A stretch of DNA of 64,000 nt from Dechloromonas aromatica (nom. nud.). Lineage in GTDB: Bacteria > Pseudomonadota > Gammaproteobacteria > Burkholderiales > Rhodocyclaceae. Position 1 is the stretch's first letter; every line of letters begins with the position of its first letter. The stretch covers positions 84,195-148,194 of the forward strand of contig JAFIHA010000025.1 in assembly GCA_017848965.1 (NCBI GenBank), given 5' to 3'. Positions 1 to 8,125 of the stretch are shown here, piece after piece. The position numbers and the translations under genes are program-made. The notes beneath the pieces were generated by a model. That model was not told the DNA's origin. It saw only the letters and a program-made list of their open reading frames with translations, and searched no databases.

Positions 1-3000
1 CTAATCTCCACCAGATCAGCATGGATTGCCAGCCAAAAGGTAAGTCCACGGAGTTTTGACGACGTCGCATTGACGCAGCGCAGTATCAGCTGCTCCAGTT
101 CCGATGTTATCGGTGTGTCGCCGTAACGTGCGGCAACTAAAGTGCCGTAAGCGGCTTCTTCATCGTTAGCATCCAAAGCGGCTTGCAGTGCATCGAGGAT
201 GCACTCAGTTCGTTGAGGCTTTAGGCTGGACACAACCTCAAAAAGGTAGTCCGACCCGAACGCAGGATCGGTTAAGCAGGCAAGCTGTTCCTCAGGCCTC
301 AGATGGGGGGCCACGTAGCTAAACAGGAACATCCGCAAGATATTCTGTTCGCGCTCGGCAAGCGTTTCCAGCATATTTGTCGCCGTGACTCGCTTAACGA
401 GTTGAAGCGCCATGTCGCGAGTCATCAAAGGCGCATATTTCGTGCCATTGAGGATCAATTGACGTAGCGGAAGCATGGAACGGGTAAGGAGGCCGGACAA
501 TATCTCCCCGGCCTTCTCAATGGCTGTTTCTGGCTCAAAACGACATGCTTTCGGGAGGAATTCCTCCAAGTCGTAGTCTTCTCTAGTTCGCCCCATGCAT
601 TTCAGGACGCTGTCCGTATGAATAGCTCGGAAATCACTTACTCCTGTATCAATATCGATTGGCCTGATCGCATTTGGATCTGCAACGACTGATTGGCGCC
701 ATTCAGTAGGCGATGGTTTCCAATGAAACCAGTCATCACGGATTGTTTTAGCGAGTCTGCTGGCTTCTGATGCAACTGCTTCATCTCCAGTTGCGTATAG
801 CATACGCACGACCGTCCAGTGACCAGCCTTCGACGTCTCCGAAGAACGGAGCGGCTCAATCGCCTTCAGGAACGCCTTCTTTGCTGGCTCACGATCCACC
901 CTGTTAAAGGTCGTTAACTGCTGAAATGCCTTTCGTGCAGTCCAACCATGTCGGTCGAGTGCAAATCCAAGTCCTAGAGCCACAAAGCTGCTCGCAAACC
1001 CTGCTAATGGGCGGCCCGCAAGTAGTTGTAGCGCTAGGGTAAACAGGGCGTCTGTCTCGCCAGTGACTTCGGTCATTTGCGCAAGTAGGCCTTCTTCGAA
1101 GGGCGATAGGGTTGATAGGATTTCCTGGATTTCCTTCTGTGCGTTCTGCAAACCCTTCGCGTCTTCGTCTTCATTGCCCTTTGGATAGCGGCTTGCCTGA
1201 TTTACAGCATCCTTGTTGTAGCAATGCAACCACTGATGGATGGCGGTCTCGGCTACTGGCCAGCCGTCTTCAGTAGCTGCGATTTCAAACCCAGCATGAA
1301 TGAACCAATCTTGATTTAGTCGTACCCCCCGTTCGAGCGTAAAAATTCCCAGCACCTTGAAAAACTCTGCTGGCTGGCCTTTTATGATCTCGACGAACTC
1401 TTCGAAGCGTTGCTCATTGACGTTCTGAAGGTTGGCAAATGACTCTAGGAGAACAGAAAAGATTTTTGGATGGAAACGGATCGAATCAAGCGAGCAGACC
1501 ATCAGGGCTGCAAACATGACATCAACGGTCCGGTCCATCGCATTAATCGGATCCATTAGGTGTGTCATCCGCTCAGCAAGATCGAGATTCGATCTCTGCA
1601 TCTGCCACAGTTGATCAATCAGTGCGTAGCCAAGGGCAAGCGTTAGGCCCTCATCACGAAGTTCATAGGCGCCTCCAGGTCCTGGAAGCGTTCGGAAGAA
1701 ACGCGTTTCAATGACAGCAGTCGATTCTGCTTCAAAGTTTTTCGGTGGTTCATTTGACGATCTTCGCACTCGCTCCAACACTTCTTTCGCATGGACGCTG
1801 AGGCGTTCGGTTAGCTTATTCAGTGTCTCTTCTTCAAAGCATTCTCGCTGCGAAGCCCGAAGATGTTCCATGAGAAGCCTATCGGTCGTCAGCCCTTTCC
1901 AGGCAATGTAGTCCTGGTGAGGCAGCGTAGCGACCGCGACCCCAAGTAGCCTGGGATTGCGAAGAGTTCGAAGCGTGGCATCATCGAGCCAATGAAGGTT
2001 GATGCCATAATGTTTTAACAGTTGATCACGCTCGCACGAAGACCATTCGGGTACTTCGATCAGCTTTGGCTTGAAGGTTAGGCCTGGAGCAACGGTCTTT
2101 TGCCAGTAAAGCGGGCGTACTGTCACTACTAGGCCGCCTCCGATGTCCCGCAACCGACTCTGCAAACCGTTGAGGATTCGATCCCATTGAGGGCGCTGCC
2201 GCTGGTTGATGCCATCGACAACGACAATCACAGGAGAGAGTGGTGACTGATTCTTCCAAGCCGTAAGCCGATGACGCCATCTCAGTCTGATTGCTTCATC
2301 GGGCACATCACCGGTCTGTTCAATCAGAAGGTCAACAAGCCATTCATCGAGGTTCTTGGGGGCAACTCCATCGAACCGCTCTGCGCTCGCGAAAAGAGCG
2401 AGGCCTTCATGGTCACAGCAAATCTGTGCAGCAAGCCATGATTTTCCTTGCCCCTCTCCCCCAGAAAGAACGGTACTTTGACCTTCGCGCAGAGTTGCCT
2501 TCACTTGATTTCGCAAGGTTATGCGCAAAGGTGGCAAATCCGCTTCAGCGCGGACAGCTAACGCCTGTCCCAATCTTTCTCTAGCAGCGTTTTCAGATCC
2601 GAAGGTGAGCGCTCGCCACTTCTTGTTCACTTCTATCGAACGTGCTGTTGCCAAGGCCGAAACACTTAGGCTCGACTTGATTCTTTGCAACAAGCTTTCG
2701 AAATCGGGATGCTTCGAAATATCTTCAAACGTTTGAGCGAGTCCTTTTCTATCGGGTTTTGGGTCGCAATGCATAGTCAGGAAATCTATCGCAGGATCGC
2801 CCGCGGCCACGGTAACGACTGCCAATAGAGGCAAGGGTGCTGCGGTCCAATCGAGAATCAAAGTAGAGACTGCGTTTTGATTGCCGTCTTCTCGCACGGC
2901 GGATGTTAGCTGGGCGGGTATCTCTGTCGTTGCTCCAAGAACCCAAAGCCGATCTGGAGCATCCTTGTTACGAGCAAAATCGGCAATCTTGGTCAAGACA

Positions 3001-3227
3001 TCATTTCGATGAATATCCCCGGAATATCGTTTCGCTTCGAAACTAACAGCATCGTTTGGTAACGCACTATCACCATCAATTCCTCCCTGCAAACCATTTG
3101 CAGCCAGCCGAAAAGGAATGCCGGTAAGTACCGTAAGAGCGATACGAACAAATCCCTCGAAACCCTCAGCGCCGGTGGCCTTAAGCGTCAATAAAATGTT
3201 CTTAAGTTCGGTTAACTGTTCACTCAT
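1..3227 (-). CDS. Avs-like STAND NTPase with N-terminal PD-(D/E)XK nuclease domain (C-terminus beyond window)
   Basis: From the ATG at 3227 the minus strand stays open for 1075 codons to the window edge; I checked every line in this frame and found no stop. Residues 20-75 look like an Mrr-type restriction nuclease fold: acidic E24 in a first helix, GGID at 48-51, then FEAKRY with E64 and K66 (D-x12-E-x-K). Residues 256-263 are a Walker A, GGEGQGKS. Residues 333-339 are a Walker B, VIVVVDG, and TVRP at 369-372 resembles the sensor arginine of NACHT/STAND proteins. The remaining roughly 650 residues look helical without an obvious domain, as expected for a target-sensing repeat region. Nuclease plus STAND plus long C-terminus is the layout of antiviral Avs proteins, so defence is inferred. 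A start-proximal GGACGAG lies 4 nt before the ATG. Base composition is clearly more AT-rich than the core genes. A PD-(D/E)XK NTPase outside the Avs families cannot be excluded without the C-terminus. Confidence 0.72.
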   Translation of the reverse strand, partial: MSEQLTELKNILLTLKATGAEGFEGFVRIALTVLTGIPFRLAANGLQGGIDGDSALPNDAVSFEAKRYSGDIHRNDVLTKIADFARNKDAPDRLWVLGATTEIPAQLTSAVREDGNQNAVSTLILDWTAAPLPLLAVVTVAAGDPAIDFLTMHCDPKPDRKGLAQTFEDISKHPDFESLLQRIKSSLSVSALATARSIEVNKKWRALTFGSENAARERLGQALAVRAEADLPPLRITLRNQVKATLREGQSTVLSGGEGQGKSWLAAQICCDHEGLALFASAERFDGVAPKNLDEWLVDLLIEQTGDVPDEAIRLRWRHRLTAWKNQSPLSPVIVVVDGINQRQRPQWDRILNGLQSRLRDIGGGLVVTVRPLYWQKTVAPGLTFKPKLIEVPEWSSCERDQLLKHYGINLHWLDDATLRTLRNPRLLGVAVATLPHQDYIAWKGLTTDRLLMEHLRASQRECFEEETLNKLTERLSVHAKEVLERVRRSSNEPPKNFEAESTAVIETRFFRTLPGPGGAYELRDEGLTLALGYALIDQLWQMQRSNLDLAERMTHLMDPINAMDRTVDVMFAALMVCSLDSIRFHPKIFSVLLESFANLQNVNEQRFEEFVEIIKGQPAEFFKVLGIFTLERGVRLNQDWFIHAGFEIAATEDGWPVAETAIHQWLHCYNKDAVNQASRYPKGNEDEDAKGLQNAQKEIQEILSTLSPFEEGLLAQMTEVTGETDALFTLALQLLAGRPLAGFASSFVALGLGFALDRHGWTARKAFQQLTTFNRVDREPAKKAFLKAIEPLRSSETSKAGHWTVVRMLYATGDEAVASEASRLAKTIRDDWFHWKPSPTEWRQSVVADPNAIRPIDIDTGVSDFRAIHTDSVLKCMGRTREDYDLEEFLPKACRFEPETAIEKAGEILSGLLTRSMLPLRQLILNGTKYAPLMTRDMALQLVKRVTATNMLETLAEREQNILRMFLFSYVAPHLRPEEQLACLTDPAFGSDYLFEVVSSLKPQRTECILDALQAALDANDEEAAYGTLVAARYGDTPITSELEQLILRCVNATSSKLRGLTFWLAIHADLVEI

Positions 3228-3460
3228 GATCTCGTCCGGTGGCATTACCTATATTCAATGTCGGGTAGTGATTCGGGGGGGGCTTTTTAGAAGGACGCAG
3301 GACTTGACGAAGCGGGAAGAGCGGATTATCGGCTTTTTAAAGCAAGCGTAGGCTGGCTGGAAGTCGGCCTTTGCCGTCATTAGGACAAATCTAACTCATC
3401 GGCAGCAATTTGGCCGGTTGCTGACGGTGGCAGCGCCGGGGGGGGGCGGACCACAAACAG
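3228..3460. other. Intergenic region between two nuclease-domain genes, with two long G tracts
   Basis: This 233 bp stretch separates the 434-residue nuclease-like gene from the STAND gene, both read on the minus strand. It contains a run of nine G at 3438-3446, just beyond the upstream gene's stop, and a run of eight G at 3275-3282, about 50 bp before the STAND start. An AT-rich patch between the second tract and the start (minus-strand TATAGG near 3250) could hold the promoter. No convincing rho-independent terminator was found. The tracts are candidates for slippage, but neither lies inside a coding frame. Confidence 0.5.
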
Positions 3461-4765
3461 TCACCCGGGATTCTGCACGGCAGATTCCGTTTCTTGATTG
3501 AACAGCCCACTGAATGCATCGCTCCACTGGCTACTATCCCGCCTTGGAAACACATAGGCGGAACCACTGCTGGTGACAACGTTTGAACTCAGTCTCCTCA
3601 TGGTTCCTCTACTGAGAAAACCGATGCCCACGATATGATCGCGGTCAGTGCAATTTGACAGGAATTTGCTGGCCCACCGGCTTAATCCCGTCGGCGCATT
3701 GCCAGAAATGTTGTCGTGCTCGGCAAGAGATACCATGCCCTCCGGCGACATCCCCCCAAATTCCAACAGAATTAATCCCGGCCGATTAGCGGTCAATTGC
3801 TTGGTAGCAGCCCTTTTGGCAGTTTTCTGAATGGCGTCGAACAGGGAATCATCCTCGTTGCTTTGAATGACGCAGATTACGGCACCACCACTCTTTAGTC
3901 CTGTAACCATAGCTTGGCGATTTGTGGTCCCCGTGATCGACTCAATCAATTCTCGCGCGCGCGGTCCAGCATTGTTCCAGTCAATACCAGTAAGCAGTTG
4001 TGCATCAAAATTATGGATTGAAATGGCTGCCTGAGGGCAAATCTGGTTTTGACCTGACGAGATGGCCTTTGCCACATGTTTGCTCAGTTTTGCACGCTCA
4101 GCAAAACTGATGGGCAACTTGCCGGGCAACGTGATCACAATCGAAAGACCTCCATGCTGCCCACGCGTAGCGTCTAAGAGATCGCGTTGCATTAGGTTCC
4201 AAAATTCAAGTGCTTGACGGGTGGAAATCCGCCGGCCTTTTTCTTCCGAGACAGCCTTGCACTCAACTTCCAAGCCCTTGGGGCCAATATCTTCAACTAG
4301 CAAATCGTACGTATCCCCGCCGTCTTCCCGATCGGGCCATGCAAGCCGATGGTCAAGCTTGGCGAAATGCAAGCCTACGGTGAACTCAAACTGAAGCGCA
4401 CGCATGTCTTCAGGGTTTCTAAAAGCACCTTGGATACGCCCGATGGCTCGGGTACGGTTCTCGGAGTCCATACTATCCAGCGTACTCAGGCAATGGGATA
4501 CGAATGCCAACGCTGGATAGACAGAAGAAAGGTCCAGTCGGTTAACCGGCAGGGTTCCATACTGGCACTCCAGGTTGCTGCACTGATTTAGTTGGTAGGC
4601 AATGTCGTTTTCTTGGAGCAGGTGATGACGGAGAAATTTGTTTCCCCGGATTTCCTCTTCGAGCTTCTTGACGCGTTGGCGCCAGTTGCTGTCCCCGATG
4701 ATGTGCCGGAATCGACGGAATAGCTGGTCAATTTCATAGTCGTGAATCGACGTTTTGAACGGCAT
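3461..4765 (-). CDS. Predicted PD-(D/E)XK nuclease-fold protein of unknown family
   Basis: A 434-residue protein I do not recognise by family. The best functional clue is a nuclease-like core: E126 in a helix (FEFTVGLHF), D154 in a TYDLLVED strand, then LEVECK with E168 and K170, matching the D...E-x-K pattern of the restriction-endonuclease superfamily. There is no signal peptide or membrane segment. The region after 180 is mixed helical and lacks a helicase or P-loop motif. It lies upstream of the Avs-like STAND gene on the same strand, 233 bp away, so the two may form one defence module, though the gap allows independent promoters. No clear Shine-Dalgarno precedes the ATG at 4765. Composition is AT-rich compared with the housekeeping genes, suggesting recent acquisition. 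The nuclease role is inferred from the motif only. Confidence 0.6.
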   Translation of the reverse strand: MPFKTSIHDYEIDQLFRRFRHIIGDSNWRQRVKKLEEEIRGNKFLRHHLLQENDIAYQLNQCSNLECQYGTLPVNRLDLSSVYPALAFVSHCLSTLDSMDSENRTRAIGRIQGAFRNPEDMRALQFEFTVGLHFAKLDHRLAWPDREDGGDTYDLLVEDIGPKGLEVECKAVSEEKGRRISTRQALEFWNLMQRDLLDATRGQHGGLSIVITLPGKLPISFAERAKLSKHVAKAISSGQNQICPQAAISIHNFDAQLLTGIDWNNAGPRARELIESITGTTNRQAMVTGLKSGGAVICVIQSNEDDSLFDAIQKTAKRAATKQLTANRPGLILLEFGGMSPEGMVSLAEHDNISGNAPTGLSRWASKFLSNCTDRDHIVGIGFLSRGTMRRLSSNVVTSSGSAYVFPRRDSSQWSDAFSGLFNQETESAVQNPG

Positions 4766-5029
4766 TTAGATTTGCATCTCGCGATATATTGGCGCCGTAA
4801 TTCTACGACTACCCGAGGGCTACCAACGGTCACCTATGCGGTGTTGCGGAGTTTTCGTAACTAACGCCCGGTTACGGAAGCAAAGTCGACTGTGTTGAGC
4901 CGCGGATCCAAGGGCTGCAATGGCCGACAAGCCACCGTTCGTGGTTCTCTACAAGAAAACGAAGGCCTGAGGTATCCAGGCGCCAAATGGCAAGGGCGAT
5001 ATTGCCGCCCCTGTTCCCTGAACAGACTT
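4766..5029. other. Intergenic region at the island border, with two small inverted repeats
   Basis: This 264 bp stretch has no credible gene. Close to the M15 peptidase stop lie two inverted repeats: a GGGCG/CGCCC hairpin at 4994-5010 and CTGTTC-CCT-GAACAG at 5011-5025. They sit where a terminator for the minus-strand peptidase gene would be, but neither is followed by a T run. The upstream region of the 434-residue gene (4766-4860) shows no clear promoter. Confidence 0.4.
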
Positions 5030-5638
5030 TCAGGCGTAAACCGCCTGGCCGGCAGCCACCCTTTTCCGCAGTTCGGCCAGCATGTCGCGTTCGCGCAGGT
5101 CGGCGGCCCAGGCGGGGCGTAGCTGGAAGTGCGGCTGGTCGACGATGGTTTTCCAGCTGCCGCCCCATTCCAGGCCGAGGTCCATGCCGAGCGCGCCGAC
5201 CGCCTTGTACTTGGGGGAATCGCCCAGGTAGCGGCTGCCTTCGAAGACGCCGATGTCGAAGGCGATGCCGAAGTTGTGGTTGGAGTAGCCGGCGCGGGCG
5301 TTGGTGACTTTCGGGCCGGGTGCGGTGCGCCCCTTGGCGTAGAGGGCGTCCTGTTCGGCGTAGCTGCGCAGGCCGCTGAGCACCTTGATGCTGATGCCGT
5401 GCAGGGCGGCTTTCTGGACCAGGGCGCGGGCCATCGGCTGGACTTCGGGGAGCAGCGTCAGGATGTTCTTCTCGCTGCGCGGGTCGACCGGTGAGACGGC
5501 GATACTGACCGCCGGGACCGCCGTTTTCGGCTTGACGATGCGAGCGTGGATGGCGCCCCAGGTTTCCGGGCCGGCCTTGCCGTCGACACCGACGCCGAGT
5601 TCCTGCTGGACTTCCCGGATCATTTCTTCGATCTTCAT
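5030..5638 (-). CDS. M15-family peptidase (VanY / L-Ala-D-Glu endopeptidase-like)
   Basis: A 202-residue putative zinc peptidase that cleaves peptidoglycan peptides. Residues 8-35 resemble a peptidoglycan-binding repeat (DGKAGPETWGAI). The catalytic domain shows SxHxxGxAxD as SNHNFGIAFD, giving zinc ligands H121 and D128, then E157 in LEWGG and H170 in QPHFQL, the usual M15 set. There is no signal peptide, as in phage endolysins of this family, but no holin, spanin or other phage gene is nearby, so it may be a domesticated lysin or muralytic enzyme. A strong GGAGGAG lies just before the ATG. It is transcribed divergently from the arsC-like gene. Confidence 0.85.
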   Translation of the reverse strand: MKIEEMIREVQQELGVGVDGKAGPETWGAIHARIVKPKTAVPAVSIAVSPVDPRSEKNILTLLPEVQPMARALVQKAALHGISIKVLSGLRSYAEQDALYAKGRTAPGPKVTNARAGYSNHNFGIAFDIGVFEGSRYLGDSPKYKAVGALGMDLGLEWGGSWKTIVDQPHFQLRPAWAADLRERDMLAELRKRVAAGQAVYA

Positions 5639-5839
5639 TTTTCGCTCCTCCAGGGTTCAAATGGGGTTTCCCCCGTTGTTCTTCAGAAACGATATAGCCG
5701 GATGTCATGATGCCATCTTGCTACCGGAAATTCCCGCCTTTTTTGCCGCCAGCGGATGGCTGCGGCCGCCGGAAGCGGGCTGCTATCATTGCGCCTTGTC
5801 GCGGGCCCGGCCCGCTTCCTTACCTGCAGAGCCCCGGAC

Positions 5840-6205
5840 ATGAACCTAGCCTCCCCGAACCAGCCGACCCTGTTCGGCATCAAGAATTGCGACACGATGA
5901 AGAAGGCCATGCACTGGCTGAGCGAGAACGGCATCGCCTACGAGTTCGTCGATTACAAGAAGGCCGGCGTCGCCGCCGCCAAGCTGCCGGACTGGGCGGC
6001 GCGCGCCGGCTGGCAGAAACTGCTCAACACGCGCGGCCTGATGTGGAAGAAGCTGTCCGAGGCGGAGCGCAGCGATGTCGACGAAGCGAAGGCGTTGCAG
6101 TTGATGGCGCAGTATCCGGCGCTGATCAAGCGGCCGGTGCTCGATCTGGGCGGCGAACTGCTGGTCGGCTTCAGCCCGGAAAGCTATGCGGAGAAGCTGA
6201 AATGA
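5840..6205 (+). CDS. ArsC/Spx-family reductase-like protein (YffB type)
   Basis: A 121-residue thioredoxin-fold protein of the ArsC/Spx/YffB family. One N-terminal cysteine, C17 in KNCDTMKKA, occupies the catalytic position; there is no CxxC pair. The conserved RGLMWKKL and the IKRPVLDLGG motif near the C-terminus fit the family. YffB-type members are glutathione-linked oxidoreductases of uncertain substrate, so arsenate reduction should not be assumed, and no ars genes are nearby. An in-frame ATG exists at 5756, but its extension is low-complexity; the start at 5840 matches family length. The stop overlaps the next ATG by 4 nt, which implies translational coupling with hslO. Confidence 0.85.
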   Translation: MNLASPNQPTLFGIKNCDTMKKAMHWLSENGIAYEFVDYKKAGVAAAKLPDWAARAGWQKLLNTRGLMWKKLSEAERSDVDEAKALQLMAQYPALIKRPVLDLGGELLVGFSPESYAEKLK

Positions 6206-7083
6206 GCGGCGGCAGCGTTCGTCGCTTCCTGTTCGAGGGGCTGGATATCCGCGGTGCCGTGGTGCATCTGGACGAAGCTTGGCAGCAGATGCAACTGGGC
6301 CGCGATTACCAGCCGACGGTGGCGCAACTGCTCGGCGAGGTGGCGGCGGTGACGGCGCTGATCGCCGGCCAGTTGAAGCAGCCCGGGCGGCTGACGCTGC
6401 AGTTGCGCGGCAATGGGCCGATCCAGTTGCTGGTGATGGATTGCAACGAGGCGCTGCAGATGCGCGGCATGGCGCGCAGCAACCCGGTGGTGCTGCCGGC
6501 GCCGGTGCCGGAATTGCTCGGCGCGCAGCAGGGCGGCCAGTTGCTGATGAGCCTCGACCTGCCGACCGCGCGCCAGCCTTACCAGAGCTACGTGCCGCTG
6601 GTTGGCGAGAGCATCGCGGCAATCTTCGAGCATTACCTGGAGCAATCGGAGCAGCAGCCGTCGCGGCTGTTCTGCACGGCGGCGCCGCAGGCGGCGGCCT
6701 GCCTGTTTCTGCAGAAGATGCCGGACGCCGACCGGCACGACGCCGACGGCTGGCAGCGGGTGACCCAGCTGGCGTCGACGGTGAAGCCGGCGGAACTGCT
6801 GACGCTGGATGCCGAGGCACTGCTCGGCCGGCTCTTCCACGAAGAGATCGCCGCTGGCGGCGTGCGCGTCTATGACCCGCAGCCGGTGGTCTATCACTGC
6901 CCGGAAGACTGGGACAAGGTGCGCGACATGATCCGCGGCATCGGCCGCGCCGACGCCGAGACGATCCTTGCCGAACACGGCGAAATCCTGATCCGCGACG
7001 ATATCTGCAACCGCGATTACCGCTTCACGGCAGCGGACGCGGCGGCGATCTTCGCCGCCAGCGAGGGGAAGGCGCTCAACTGA
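6202..7083 (+). CDS. hslO: Hsp33-family redox chaperone with degenerate zinc motif
   Basis: At 293 residues this is the normal Hsp33 length, and the substrate-binding fold is recognisable (LRGNGPIQLLV, LGAQQGGQLLMSLDLP). Hsp33 is a cytosolic holdase activated when its C-terminal zinc is lost on cysteine oxidation. The canonical switch is CxC followed about 30 residues later by CxxC. Here the first motif reads HCPED and the second RDDICN, so only one cysteine of each pair remains (second and third positions replaced by E and D). Zinc binding and classic redox activation are therefore doubtful. The DNA reads cleanly, so this is not a frameshift. It overlaps the upstream ArsC-like gene as ATGA. 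The coupling to a thiol-reductase-like gene suggests a thiol-stress role. Confidence 0.9.
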   Translation: MSGGSVRRFLFEGLDIRGAVVHLDEAWQQMQLGRDYQPTVAQLLGEVAAVTALIAGQLKQPGRLTLQLRGNGPIQLLVMDCNEALQMRGMARSNPVVLPAPVPELLGAQQGGQLLMSLDLPTARQPYQSYVPLVGESIAAIFEHYLEQSEQQPSRLFCTAAPQAAACLFLQKMPDADRHDADGWQRVTQLASTVKPAELLTLDAEALLGRLFHEEIAAGGVRVYDPQPVVYHCPEDWDKVRDMIRGIGRADAETILAEHGEILIRDDICNRDYRFTAADAAAIFAASEGKALN

Positions 7084-7092
7084 GCGCCCCGC

Positions 7093-7602
7093 TTACTTCT
7101 GGTAAACCAGCTGCACGCGCCGCATCAGCTTGCGGCATTGCGGCGAACGGCAAGCCGGGCTGACTTCTTCCGAGCCGACCGCCTCGCGCCGGATCTGGGT
7201 CACCGGAATGCCGGCGCCGCGCAGCACGGCGAAGACGGCGTTGATCCGCTGTTCGGCGATGGCCAGGTTGTAGGAGCGGCTGCCCAGGTGGTCGGCATGC
7301 CCGACCAGGGTGACAACCAGTTCCGGGTCGGCCTTCAGGCGGGCGGCGTGTTCGAGCAGGCGCTGCCGCCCTTCGGCGTCGATCGTGTTGCCTGACGACG
7401 CAAAGAAGATGCTGTTGTCGACATCGACCGCCGCCATTGCGGCCTTTTCTTCCTGCGCCGGGTTGCTGGCTGGCTTGGGTGCTTCGCTGCGCACGGACGG
7501 GGGGGTTTCGCGCGGCGGGGTTTCGCTGACTGGCGGTTGAGCGGCGCAAGCGCCGAGCAACAGTACGGCGCCGAGGACAATCGCAAGCTTGGTGGTCGGC
7601 AA
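7093..7602 (-). CDS. OmpA-family peptidoglycan-associated lipoprotein
   Basis: A 169-residue lipoprotein. The N-terminus has a hydrophobic signal ending in the lipobox LLLGAC, followed by a Pro/Glu-rich linker and an OmpA C-terminal domain. Peptidoglycan-binding residues are seen in TLVGHADHLGSRSYNLAIAEQR. Two extra cysteines near the C-terminus (CRSPQC) may form a disulfide. I choose the TTG at 7602 as start because AAGGAG lies 6 nt upstream and it begins 1 nt after the stop of the marR-type gene; longer in-frame starts would bury the signal peptide. The arrangement implies coupled translation with the regulator. It probably tethers the outer membrane to the wall. Confidence 0.85.
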   Translation of the reverse strand: MPTTKLAIVLGAVLLLGACAAQPPVSETPPRETPPSVRSEAPKPASNPAQEEKAAMAAVDVDNSIFFASSGNTIDAEGRQRLLEHAARLKADPELVVTLVGHADHLGSRSYNLAIAEQRINAVFAVLRGAGIPVTQIRREAVGSEEVSPACRSPQCRKLMRRVQLVYQK

Positions 7603-7603
7603 A

Positions 7604-8125
7604 TCAATCTCCTTCGTTATTGCGGACCATGTCGGCCAGCGGCATGTTGGCGTATTTCTCGTCCTTGCCGGGGATATGCTGCAGCAGCTCCGCAAGATTG
7701 ATCTGCAATGTTTTCAGGACGACTTCCGGCACCGCCGCCAGGGCTTCCGGAACGACGCCTTCGGCCGGACCGGGCAAAGCGGCCAGGGCCTCGTGACCGC
7801 GCTCGGTCAACTGCAGGCCGACCCGGCGCTGATCGCCCGTCTTCTTGCGCTTGTCGAGGCAATCCTGAGCCACCAGCTTGTCAACCAACTGGCTGCAGGT
7901 GGACTGGTGAACGCCCATGCGCTCGGCGAGTTCGCCGATGCCGATACCCGGCGAACGCTGCACCTCCTGCAACACCCACATCTGCGAACCGGACATGCCG
8001 CAGCGTTCTTCGACCAGCCGGAAATGCCGGCGCATGGACCCGTAAATCAGACGGAACTGTTGCAGGACGTCAATGACCCGCTGCTCCTTGGAGCTACTCA
8101 AAGCGTTCAAAACTGGTACTTTCAA
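7604..8125 (-). CDS. MarR-family transcriptional regulator
   Basis: A 173-residue winged-helix regulator. Helices around SGSQMWVLQEV, IGIGELAERMGVHQSTCSQLVDKL and the wing KRKKTGDQRRVGLQLTERG give the standard MarR layout, so it should bind palindromic DNA as a dimer. The start is a TTG at 8125 with a weak ribosome site; no good ATG lies upstream. It ends 1 nt before the lipoprotein start, forming an operon. A 15 bp perfect palindrome lies 27 bp upstream in the space shared with the divergent dapB-like gene, a natural autoregulatory operator. C15-type cysteines are limited to two, and the ligand cannot be deduced. Confidence 0.88.
   Translation of the reverse strand: MKVPVLNALSSSKEQRVIDVLQQFRLIYGSMRRHFRLVEERCGMSGSQMWVLQEVQRSPGIGIGELAERMGVHQSTCSQLVDKLVAQDCLDKRKKTGDQRRVGLQLTERGHEALAALPGPAEGVVPEALAAVPEVVLKTLQINLAELLQHIPGKDEKYANMPLADMVRNNEGD

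Follow-up and report, generated by a model that had tools for sequence, protein, structure and literature searches.

The NLR immune receptors of plants and animals have bacterial counterparts in the antiviral STAND proteins. Avs2 begins with an N-terminal nuclease, Avs3a follows a nuclease-STAND-sensor order, and NACHT domains characteristically have a tiny residue following the Walker B aspartate. According to the available part of one report, Avs1 to Avs4 carry nuclease effectors (PMC12931631), and the available text of another describes bNACHT25 and bNACHT32 (clade 6) as a PD-(D/E)XK DNase followed by NACHT, with a DNase residue required for defense (PMC12169576). We analyzed a stretch of 64,000 nucleotides from a Dechloromonas aromatica assembly (GCA_017848965.1, contig JAFIHA010000025.1; the whole stretch is referred to as the window), the left edge of which cuts through a large gene for a predicted nuclease joined to a STAND NTPase. 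We consider it probable, at roughly 0.8, that this gene encodes a one-gene abortive-infection (altruistic defense) protein built like an Avs or a bacterial NLR/NACHT protein.

Architecture of the nuclease-STAND protein

The window corresponds to C63:84195-148194 of its own assembly, and the contig extends further left. Within the window, the gene is a single minus-strand open reading frame (ORF) at 3..3245, with 1,081 codons from an ATG at 3245, and is open at the left edge; an alternative second ATG at 3227 gives 1,075 codons to the edge, and neither start is clearly preferred. A first-pass annotation made from the sequence alone had reported an edge-crossing frame of 1,075 codons without naming a strand. 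That frame is real and belongs to the minus strand; its codon count starts at the second ATG, and in the same numbering the motif positions given there (D51, E64-A-K66, Walker A 256-263, Walker B 335-339, and TVRP) are correct. The leftward extension of the contig that it had proposed closes the frame intact: the full gene has 1,508 codons, a stop about 1.28 kb left of the window, and zero internal stops (C63:82913-87439, equal to L002:10914-15440). A frameshift or assembly artifact was ruled out by the intact frame together with 14 single-frame close relatives; these relatives and the near-invariant motif residues place the frame well outside what chance would give. Numbered from the first ATG, as in all that follows, the motifs are D57, E70-A-K72, Walker A GGEGQGKS at 262-269, Walker B VVVDG at 341-345, and TVRP at 375-378 (Table 1).

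Conservation in the N-terminal domain was counted over 39 rows, namely, the window protein and 38 of the 41 loci L015-L055 (L024, L037, and L041 were left out). E30, Q53, D57, K72, and Y74 are invariant in all 39, and E70 is found in 37, with Q in the other two. Pfam Mrr_cat is matched by 17/39 members (best E value, 0.002) and every other Pfam family by two at most; the N-terminal Mrr match that had been anticipated is thus present in relatives and missing from the window's own member. The sole PDB match of the nuclease profile at E values up to 10 is LlaBIII, which we take to be a type ISP restriction enzyme; the match is weak (E value, 0.49) and falls on the catalytic motif. When the nuclease alone was aligned with the N-terminal slice of Avs2 by hhalign, the score was 29.0, against a best of 19.0 in 60 column-shuffled controls (probability, 27.1). 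By its catalytic Asp and Glu-x-Lys and by the Mrr_cat similarity of its relatives, the N terminus is predicted to be a Mrr-type PD-(D/E)XK nuclease. Separately, a Bipolaricaulota contig carries the family's nuclease domain alone in a 203-amino-acid frame (L052:1819-2427; 50% identity over 130 amino acids).

The central NTPase was assessed over the 38 rows that reach this domain. Walker A K268 and Walker B D344-G345-x-N347 are present in every one of them, with G345 supplying the bNACHT-type small residue after D344. Pfam NACHT matches seven of the nine members of alignment A1 (best E value, 1.7e-6), so that the central STAND match expected by the first-pass annotation holds for the family, with the window protein itself under the cutoff. 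In a search of the NTPase profile against PDB, which gave 13 matches, the best was 9n00 (E value, 0.0052), followed by RecA (0.042), Avs2 (9o4e; 0.078), and Apaf-1 (0.23). Entry 9n00, labeled as an AAA family ATPase of 1,523 amino acids, resembles the family in size class and in a conserved R-N-P-R stretch within the NTPase match, but the alignment spans just 126 profile positions; a literature search found no paper naming this entry. Aligned with the STAND region of Avs2, the NTPase gave an hhalign probability of 92.5 and a score of 56.2; the highest score among 60 column-shuffled controls was 23.4. Residues 401 to 560 are the most conserved stretch relative to 14 close relatives (mean, 67.3%; nuclease, 62.1%) and may form a winged-helix part.

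An NTPase-nuclease of restriction or regulatory type, cutting foreign DNA directly through recognition of modifications or ends rather than acting as a cell death receptor, would account for the Mrr-like effector, for LlaBIII as the nuclease profile's only PDB match, and for the nuclease domain standing alone in the L052 protein. We regard this as improbable, as conserved partners of the methylase, helicase, or specificity type are absent and the NTPase resembles the signaling NACHT/STAND class rather than helicases. An ordinary restriction or helicase enzyme was rejected as the leading interpretation on these same two grounds, the absent conserved partner and the signaling-type NTPase.

For the last ~950 amino acids, no convincing relative was found in Pfam, PADLOC, NCBIfam, or PDB. 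The lowest conservation lies at residues 1051 to 1300 (mean, 42.6% to the 14 close relatives), and a C terminus that is the least conserved part is the pattern expected of a sensor. The C-terminal repeats foreseen in the first-pass annotation were not borne out, as profile self-comparison found no internal repeats (best probability, 5.5). Its description of a long helical C terminus is likewise not established by a crude propensity count, in which helix-like windows reached 0.52 versus 0.39 and 0.41 in the other domains.

With this architecture, the family would most likely kill infected cells to stop phages. The C-terminal ~950 residues would recognize a phage protein or a phage-caused disturbance, and this recognition would let the central NACHT/STAND NTPase (K268 and D344) bind nucleotide and form an oligomer. 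The oligomer would in turn bring the N-terminal Mrr-like PD-(D/E)XK domains (D57, E70, and K72) together, and the assembled nucleases would cut host and phage DNA alike before progeny release, at the cost of the cell. The basis for this model is the domain order, the conserved presumed catalytic residues, the single-gene organization, the patchy distribution, and the defense-rich context, all of which are observed; we infer oligomerization, DNA cutting, and cell death from characterized Avs and bNACHT proteins, as presented in the available portions of two reports (PMC12931631, PMC12169576).

Relation to Avs and bNACHT proteins

Judged by sequence, the protein combines an N-terminal effector, a central STAND NTPase, and a large C-terminal region in one chain, as in the Avs architecture. 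The first-pass annotation had left open whether it belongs to a known Avs group, and this can be answered in part: the window protein (P0001) has no PADLOC or NCBIfam model match, Avs models included, at E values up to 1, whereas true Avs2 proteins used as positive controls score 500-1700 bits against Avs2 models. Six further family proteins gave no Avs model match. Among the nine members of alignment A1, one matched Avs2 at an E value of 0.029 and one matched an Argonaute-associated REase-TIR model at 0.00063.

The profile-profile comparison covered Avs2 and one Avs3a-like protein that scored just under the Avs3a cutoff; Avs1, Avs4, and Avs5 were not included. Avs2 (AVAST type 2; PDB 9o4e, NF041813) shares with the family a central STAND domain with D-[GA]-x-N at Walker B, a large C terminus, and a length of ~1400-1500 amino acids. 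The hhalign match to Avs2 is colinear over the nuclease and NTPase (465 columns; probability, 85.7) and contains nothing beyond column 517, such that no similarity is detectable in the family's last ~950 amino acids. For Avs3a (NF041816), the single protein compared aligned at a probability of only 11.5, over part of the N-terminal half and with the C terminus unaligned. A divergent member of a known Avs type (Avs1-5) that public models miss could share this length class, this domain order, the colinear match, and the Walker B signature, but we think it unlikely given the absence of any model match for the window protein and a presumed sensor that aligns with neither Avs2 nor the Avs3a-like protein.

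Pfam NACHT being the commonest match, the protein could instead belong with the bacterial NACHT (bNACHT/NLR-related) proteins and form another clade of them, such as clade 6. Its effector type and domain order, a PD-(D/E)XK nuclease ahead of NACHT, are those of bNACHT25 and bNACHT32, a comparison made by description only, from the available text of the report (PMC12169576). However, none of the nine family members has a named sensor-type Pfam domain at E values of ≤0.1. No NCH1-type match was among the Pfam matches of these nine members, and Pfam was not checked for such a model. We hold placement in a bNACHT clade to be possible but doubtful; it differs from the abortive-infection interpretation in filing, not in mechanism.

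The more specific proposal that this is an unnamed, widespread nuclease-NACHT receptor family, whose sensor is related to none of those in Avs or bNACHT proteins and recognizes a novel phage trigger, is tentative, at slightly under even odds. No description tied to the family was found in the literature searched, including the available parts of PMC13092281 and PMC10907252; the original Avs and bNACHT papers lay outside this search. The DefensePredictor paper validates further nuclease and NACHT systems, and the family may already appear in the literature under another name. We rate the family as uncatalogued: by sequence it appears to belong to none of the catalogued families tested, yet to be of the known antiviral STAND kind. 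As the window protein has no PADLOC or NCBIfam match and most copies annotated on plasmids are labeled "hypothetical protein," routine annotation would pass the family by. A conserved nuclease and switch combined with an unrelated sensor would offer a new handle on the phage features that bacteria detect, and the family is tractable, consisting of one gene with intact relatives in cultured species and clear residues to mutate.

Distribution and defense context

Relatives of ~1500 amino acids occur sporadically in Proteobacteria and beyond, and the family is widespread but rare. A tblastn search of plasmids gave 12 records, among them six in which the alignment spans 80% or more of the query (24-30% identity), in "Candidatus Manganitrophus" (Nitrospirota) and alphaproteobacteria. 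Most of the plasmid copies with an annotation bear the name "hypothetical protein," and one is designated "NACHT domain-containing protein." In a contig scan that covered 84,980 species by a single genome each, the four-sequence alignment A2 as the query gave 116 candidate stretches and, from these, 40 loci with a relative; the same scan with a single protein as the query found none. Fifteen of the loci (L015-L029) are at 49-61% identity, and 14 of these are single frames of 1444-1523 amino acids that align nearly end to end, the remaining one (L024) being split. Another 22 loci are at 26-30% identity, including the Manganitrophus plasmid already found by tblastn (L041), and three (L052-L054) are partial or remote relatives. 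One of 54 candidate stretches from viral contigs encodes a family member (L055). Phage records yielded no member, and neither did E. coli genomes in a distant blastn with the window part of the gene. With the own genome included, the family was found in 3/274 genomes of the class sample (E value, ≤1e-10) and in 4/398 of the overlapping phylum sample (E value, ≤1e-20). Within the genus, the gene is absent from all 59 other genomes, one of which has a weak 108-residue C-terminal match (E value, 6.8e-4).

In a tree built from alignment A4 (45 rows, with L023, L053, and L054 left out), the window protein groups with the gammaproteobacteria Amphritea, Pseudomonas, and Rheinheimera and the alphaproteobacterium Sneathiella; the support values of this grouping (93-94) do not reach the starred level. 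The alphaproteobacterial label requires 7 changes, versus a shuffled mean of 10.8 (as low in 5/500 shuffles), and the gammaproteobacterial label 8, versus 10.2 (as low in 48/500). These labels seem partly clustered and far from a single origin, which we read as horizontal spread.

Another possibility is that the gene serves mobile elements as a stability or addiction gene and plays no part against phages. Its 12 plasmid records would fit, as would its position directly after an AbrB/VapC pair in L013 and the related tyrosine-recombinase genes directly after it in L049 and L055 and ~1.4 kb upstream in L013. We find this very improbable, because no antitoxin-like neighbor is conserved and copies lie near many matches to defense models. 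The recombinase neighbors suggest a small integrative element as a carrier in these three loci.

Clustering of neighboring genes recovered the family in 51/52 loci, the remaining one (L003) being more of the window's own contig. No partner gene is conserved across the 51 family-bearing loci, and the nuclease-STAND gene appears, on this basis, to be a single-gene system. The largest other clusters span five loci; several of them reflect Manganitrophus plasmids that are nearly identical, or else transposases or recombinases, and another contains ~300-amino-acid proteins. A two- or three-gene system with the adjacent genes P0002 and P0003 was rejected, as neither clusters with any gene in the 50 other family-bearing loci, among which one record appears twice. 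The plasmid relatives found for P0002 and P0003 were in records other than the family's (3 of the 14 P0003 records were viewed).

Several plasmid copies lie close to annotated defense genes. Those of Manganitrophus have restriction-modification genes in their vicinity, along with a helicase accompanied by a gene that is annotated as SAVED and groups with HamA in the clustering; HamA is annotated near the Methylobacterium copy, and an AAA ATPase with RloB is annotated near the Sphingobium copy. For a scan of flanking genes with PADLOC at an E value of ≤1e-15, 124 genes were chosen, 5 long ones were dropped, and the other 119 matched 140 models. Among 25 of these models (many of them redundant) were GajA, GajB, Old, AriA, mad2, Avs2, MTase_III, Cas85f, and AbiEii. 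The same procedure applied as a control to 43 genes from 6-64 kb of the window gave four models, namely, mad3, SspH twice, and mad8.

In its own genome, the gene sits in an island with a GC content of 50-53% (about L002:10,000-17,000), versus 62-72% to the left and 63-67% to the right. The island contains P0002 (318 amino acids), the nuclease-STAND gene, and P0003 (434 amino acids), and is bordered by an old-yellow-enzyme-type gene on one side and an M15 peptidase (Pfam) followed by an Spx/Hsp33 block on the other; the old-yellow-enzyme and Spx/Hsp33 names are our reading of the translations. We compared the DNA of this site with 60 genomes of the genus, 59 of which match. At least seven carry the two borders near each other on a single contig (G033, G050, G026, G008, G028, G031, and, with a contig-end fragment, G006); the borders are apart or on different contigs in other genomes of the genus among the matches listed. 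In G033 (C273:4481-6584), the borders are merely 85 bases apart, which amounts to a natural, almost empty site, and in the other six the stretch between them varies in length and content. At the G031 site (L065, G031:C1:537000-554700) lies a CRISPR array whose 28-base repeats recur with a 60-base period, together with type I-F cas8f, cas2-3f, and cas1f (about 3800-8120 and 10832-16434 in L065), and the G006 site holds a P-loop gene that matches the candidate defense model PDC-M36A (E value, 3.8e-13). The cargo scan covered 10 cargo or cargo-related proteins, with the cargo of G050 and G008 left out. The site is variable, and only some of the species carry defense genes at it. With the intact gene, its domains, the defense-rich neighborhoods, and this low-GC variable site, the first-pass proposal of a nuclease plus STAND NTPase as an Avs-like antiviral candidate gains support.

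Several observations weigh against the abortive-infection interpretation. The window protein scores below the Pfam NACHT cutoff (15.9 versus 26.7 bits), and its own nuclease domain lacks Mrr_cat, with only a chance-level match to another family. RecA outranks Avs2 in the PDB search of the NTPase profile, and with the whole-family profile FtsY ranks first (E value, 0.06) and Avs is absent from the matches. The nuclease-to-Avs2 match is weak by itself (probability, 27.1 with the N-terminal slice and 5.7 with the whole Avs2 profile), and the sensor has no detectable relative, so that a phage trigger is presumed. The PADLOC numbers for the flanks refer to redundant models rather than to genes, and are set against one small control region. 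At the variable site, three of the four scanned G028 genes and one from G026 have no PADLOC match at an E value of ≤0.01, and the fourth G028 gene matches mad2 only weakly (0.0028).

Window features and neighboring genes

Table 1. Features of the nuclease-STAND locus in window coordinates
Feature	Position	Strand	Basis
Nuclease-STAND gene, 5' part (1,081/1,508 codons)	1..3245	-	ORF and own-contig extension
Predicted Mrr-like PD-(D/E)XK nuclease effector domain, residues ~1-165	2751..3245	-	Mrr_cat in relatives; conserved residues
Presumed catalytic D57	3075..3077	-	39/39 rows
Presumed catalytic E70-A-K72	3030..3038	-	E70 37/39 (2 Q), K72 39/39
NACHT/STAND NTPase core, residues ~236-400	2046..2540	-	Pfam NACHT in relatives; hhalign to Avs2
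Walker A GGEGQGKS (262-269)	2439..2462	-	K268 in 38/38 rows reaching the domain
Walker B VVVDG (341-345), then conserved N347	2211..2225	-	D344, G345, N347 in 38/38
Helical/winged-helix-like STAND part, residues ~401-560, with P431-R432	1566..2045	-	P431, R432 in 38/38
Start of ~950-amino-acid C-terminal presumed sensor, residues 561-1508 (561-1081 in window)	1..1565	-	No convincing relative
434-amino-acid neighbor gene P0003, same low-GC island, not a conserved partner	3461..4765	-	Clustering, GC
Right part of low-GC (about 50-53%) island; island start ~2-2.7 kb left of window	1..4800	.	GC profile
M15-type peptidase gene near right border of variable site	5030..5638	-	Pfam

The two island neighbors have features of their own. 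P0002 lies just downstream of the nuclease-STAND gene (L002:9754-10710, minus strand) and has a weak AbiJ match (E value, 0.0029) and a weak HEPN match. P0003, for which 14 plasmid records contain relatives, includes a D...E-C-K stretch that may indicate another PD-(D/E)XK nuclease, and a congener copy of this gene (L071) adjoins a protein that weakly matches an Argonaute-associated REase (E value, 5.7e-7). Between P0002 and the nuclease-STAND gene, at L002:10827-10875, an element of ~48 bases occurs at 86-100% identity in at least nine genomes of the genus; in G001, among the matches listed, it is present in three copies about 50 bases apart. A search allowing up to 3 mismatches found no copy of its 36-base core in the window. 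Elsewhere on L002, a manganese (yybP-ykoY) riboswitch at 4579-4749 (minus strand) apparently precedes a membrane-protein-like gene.

Large genes also stand near other family members. Three related giant ORFs of 1735-1775 amino acids adjoin the family gene in L014, L042, and L043, and a 1,579-amino-acid frame at L027:12012-16751, of a kind often annotated as "ATP-binding protein," has 13 plasmid records of its own.

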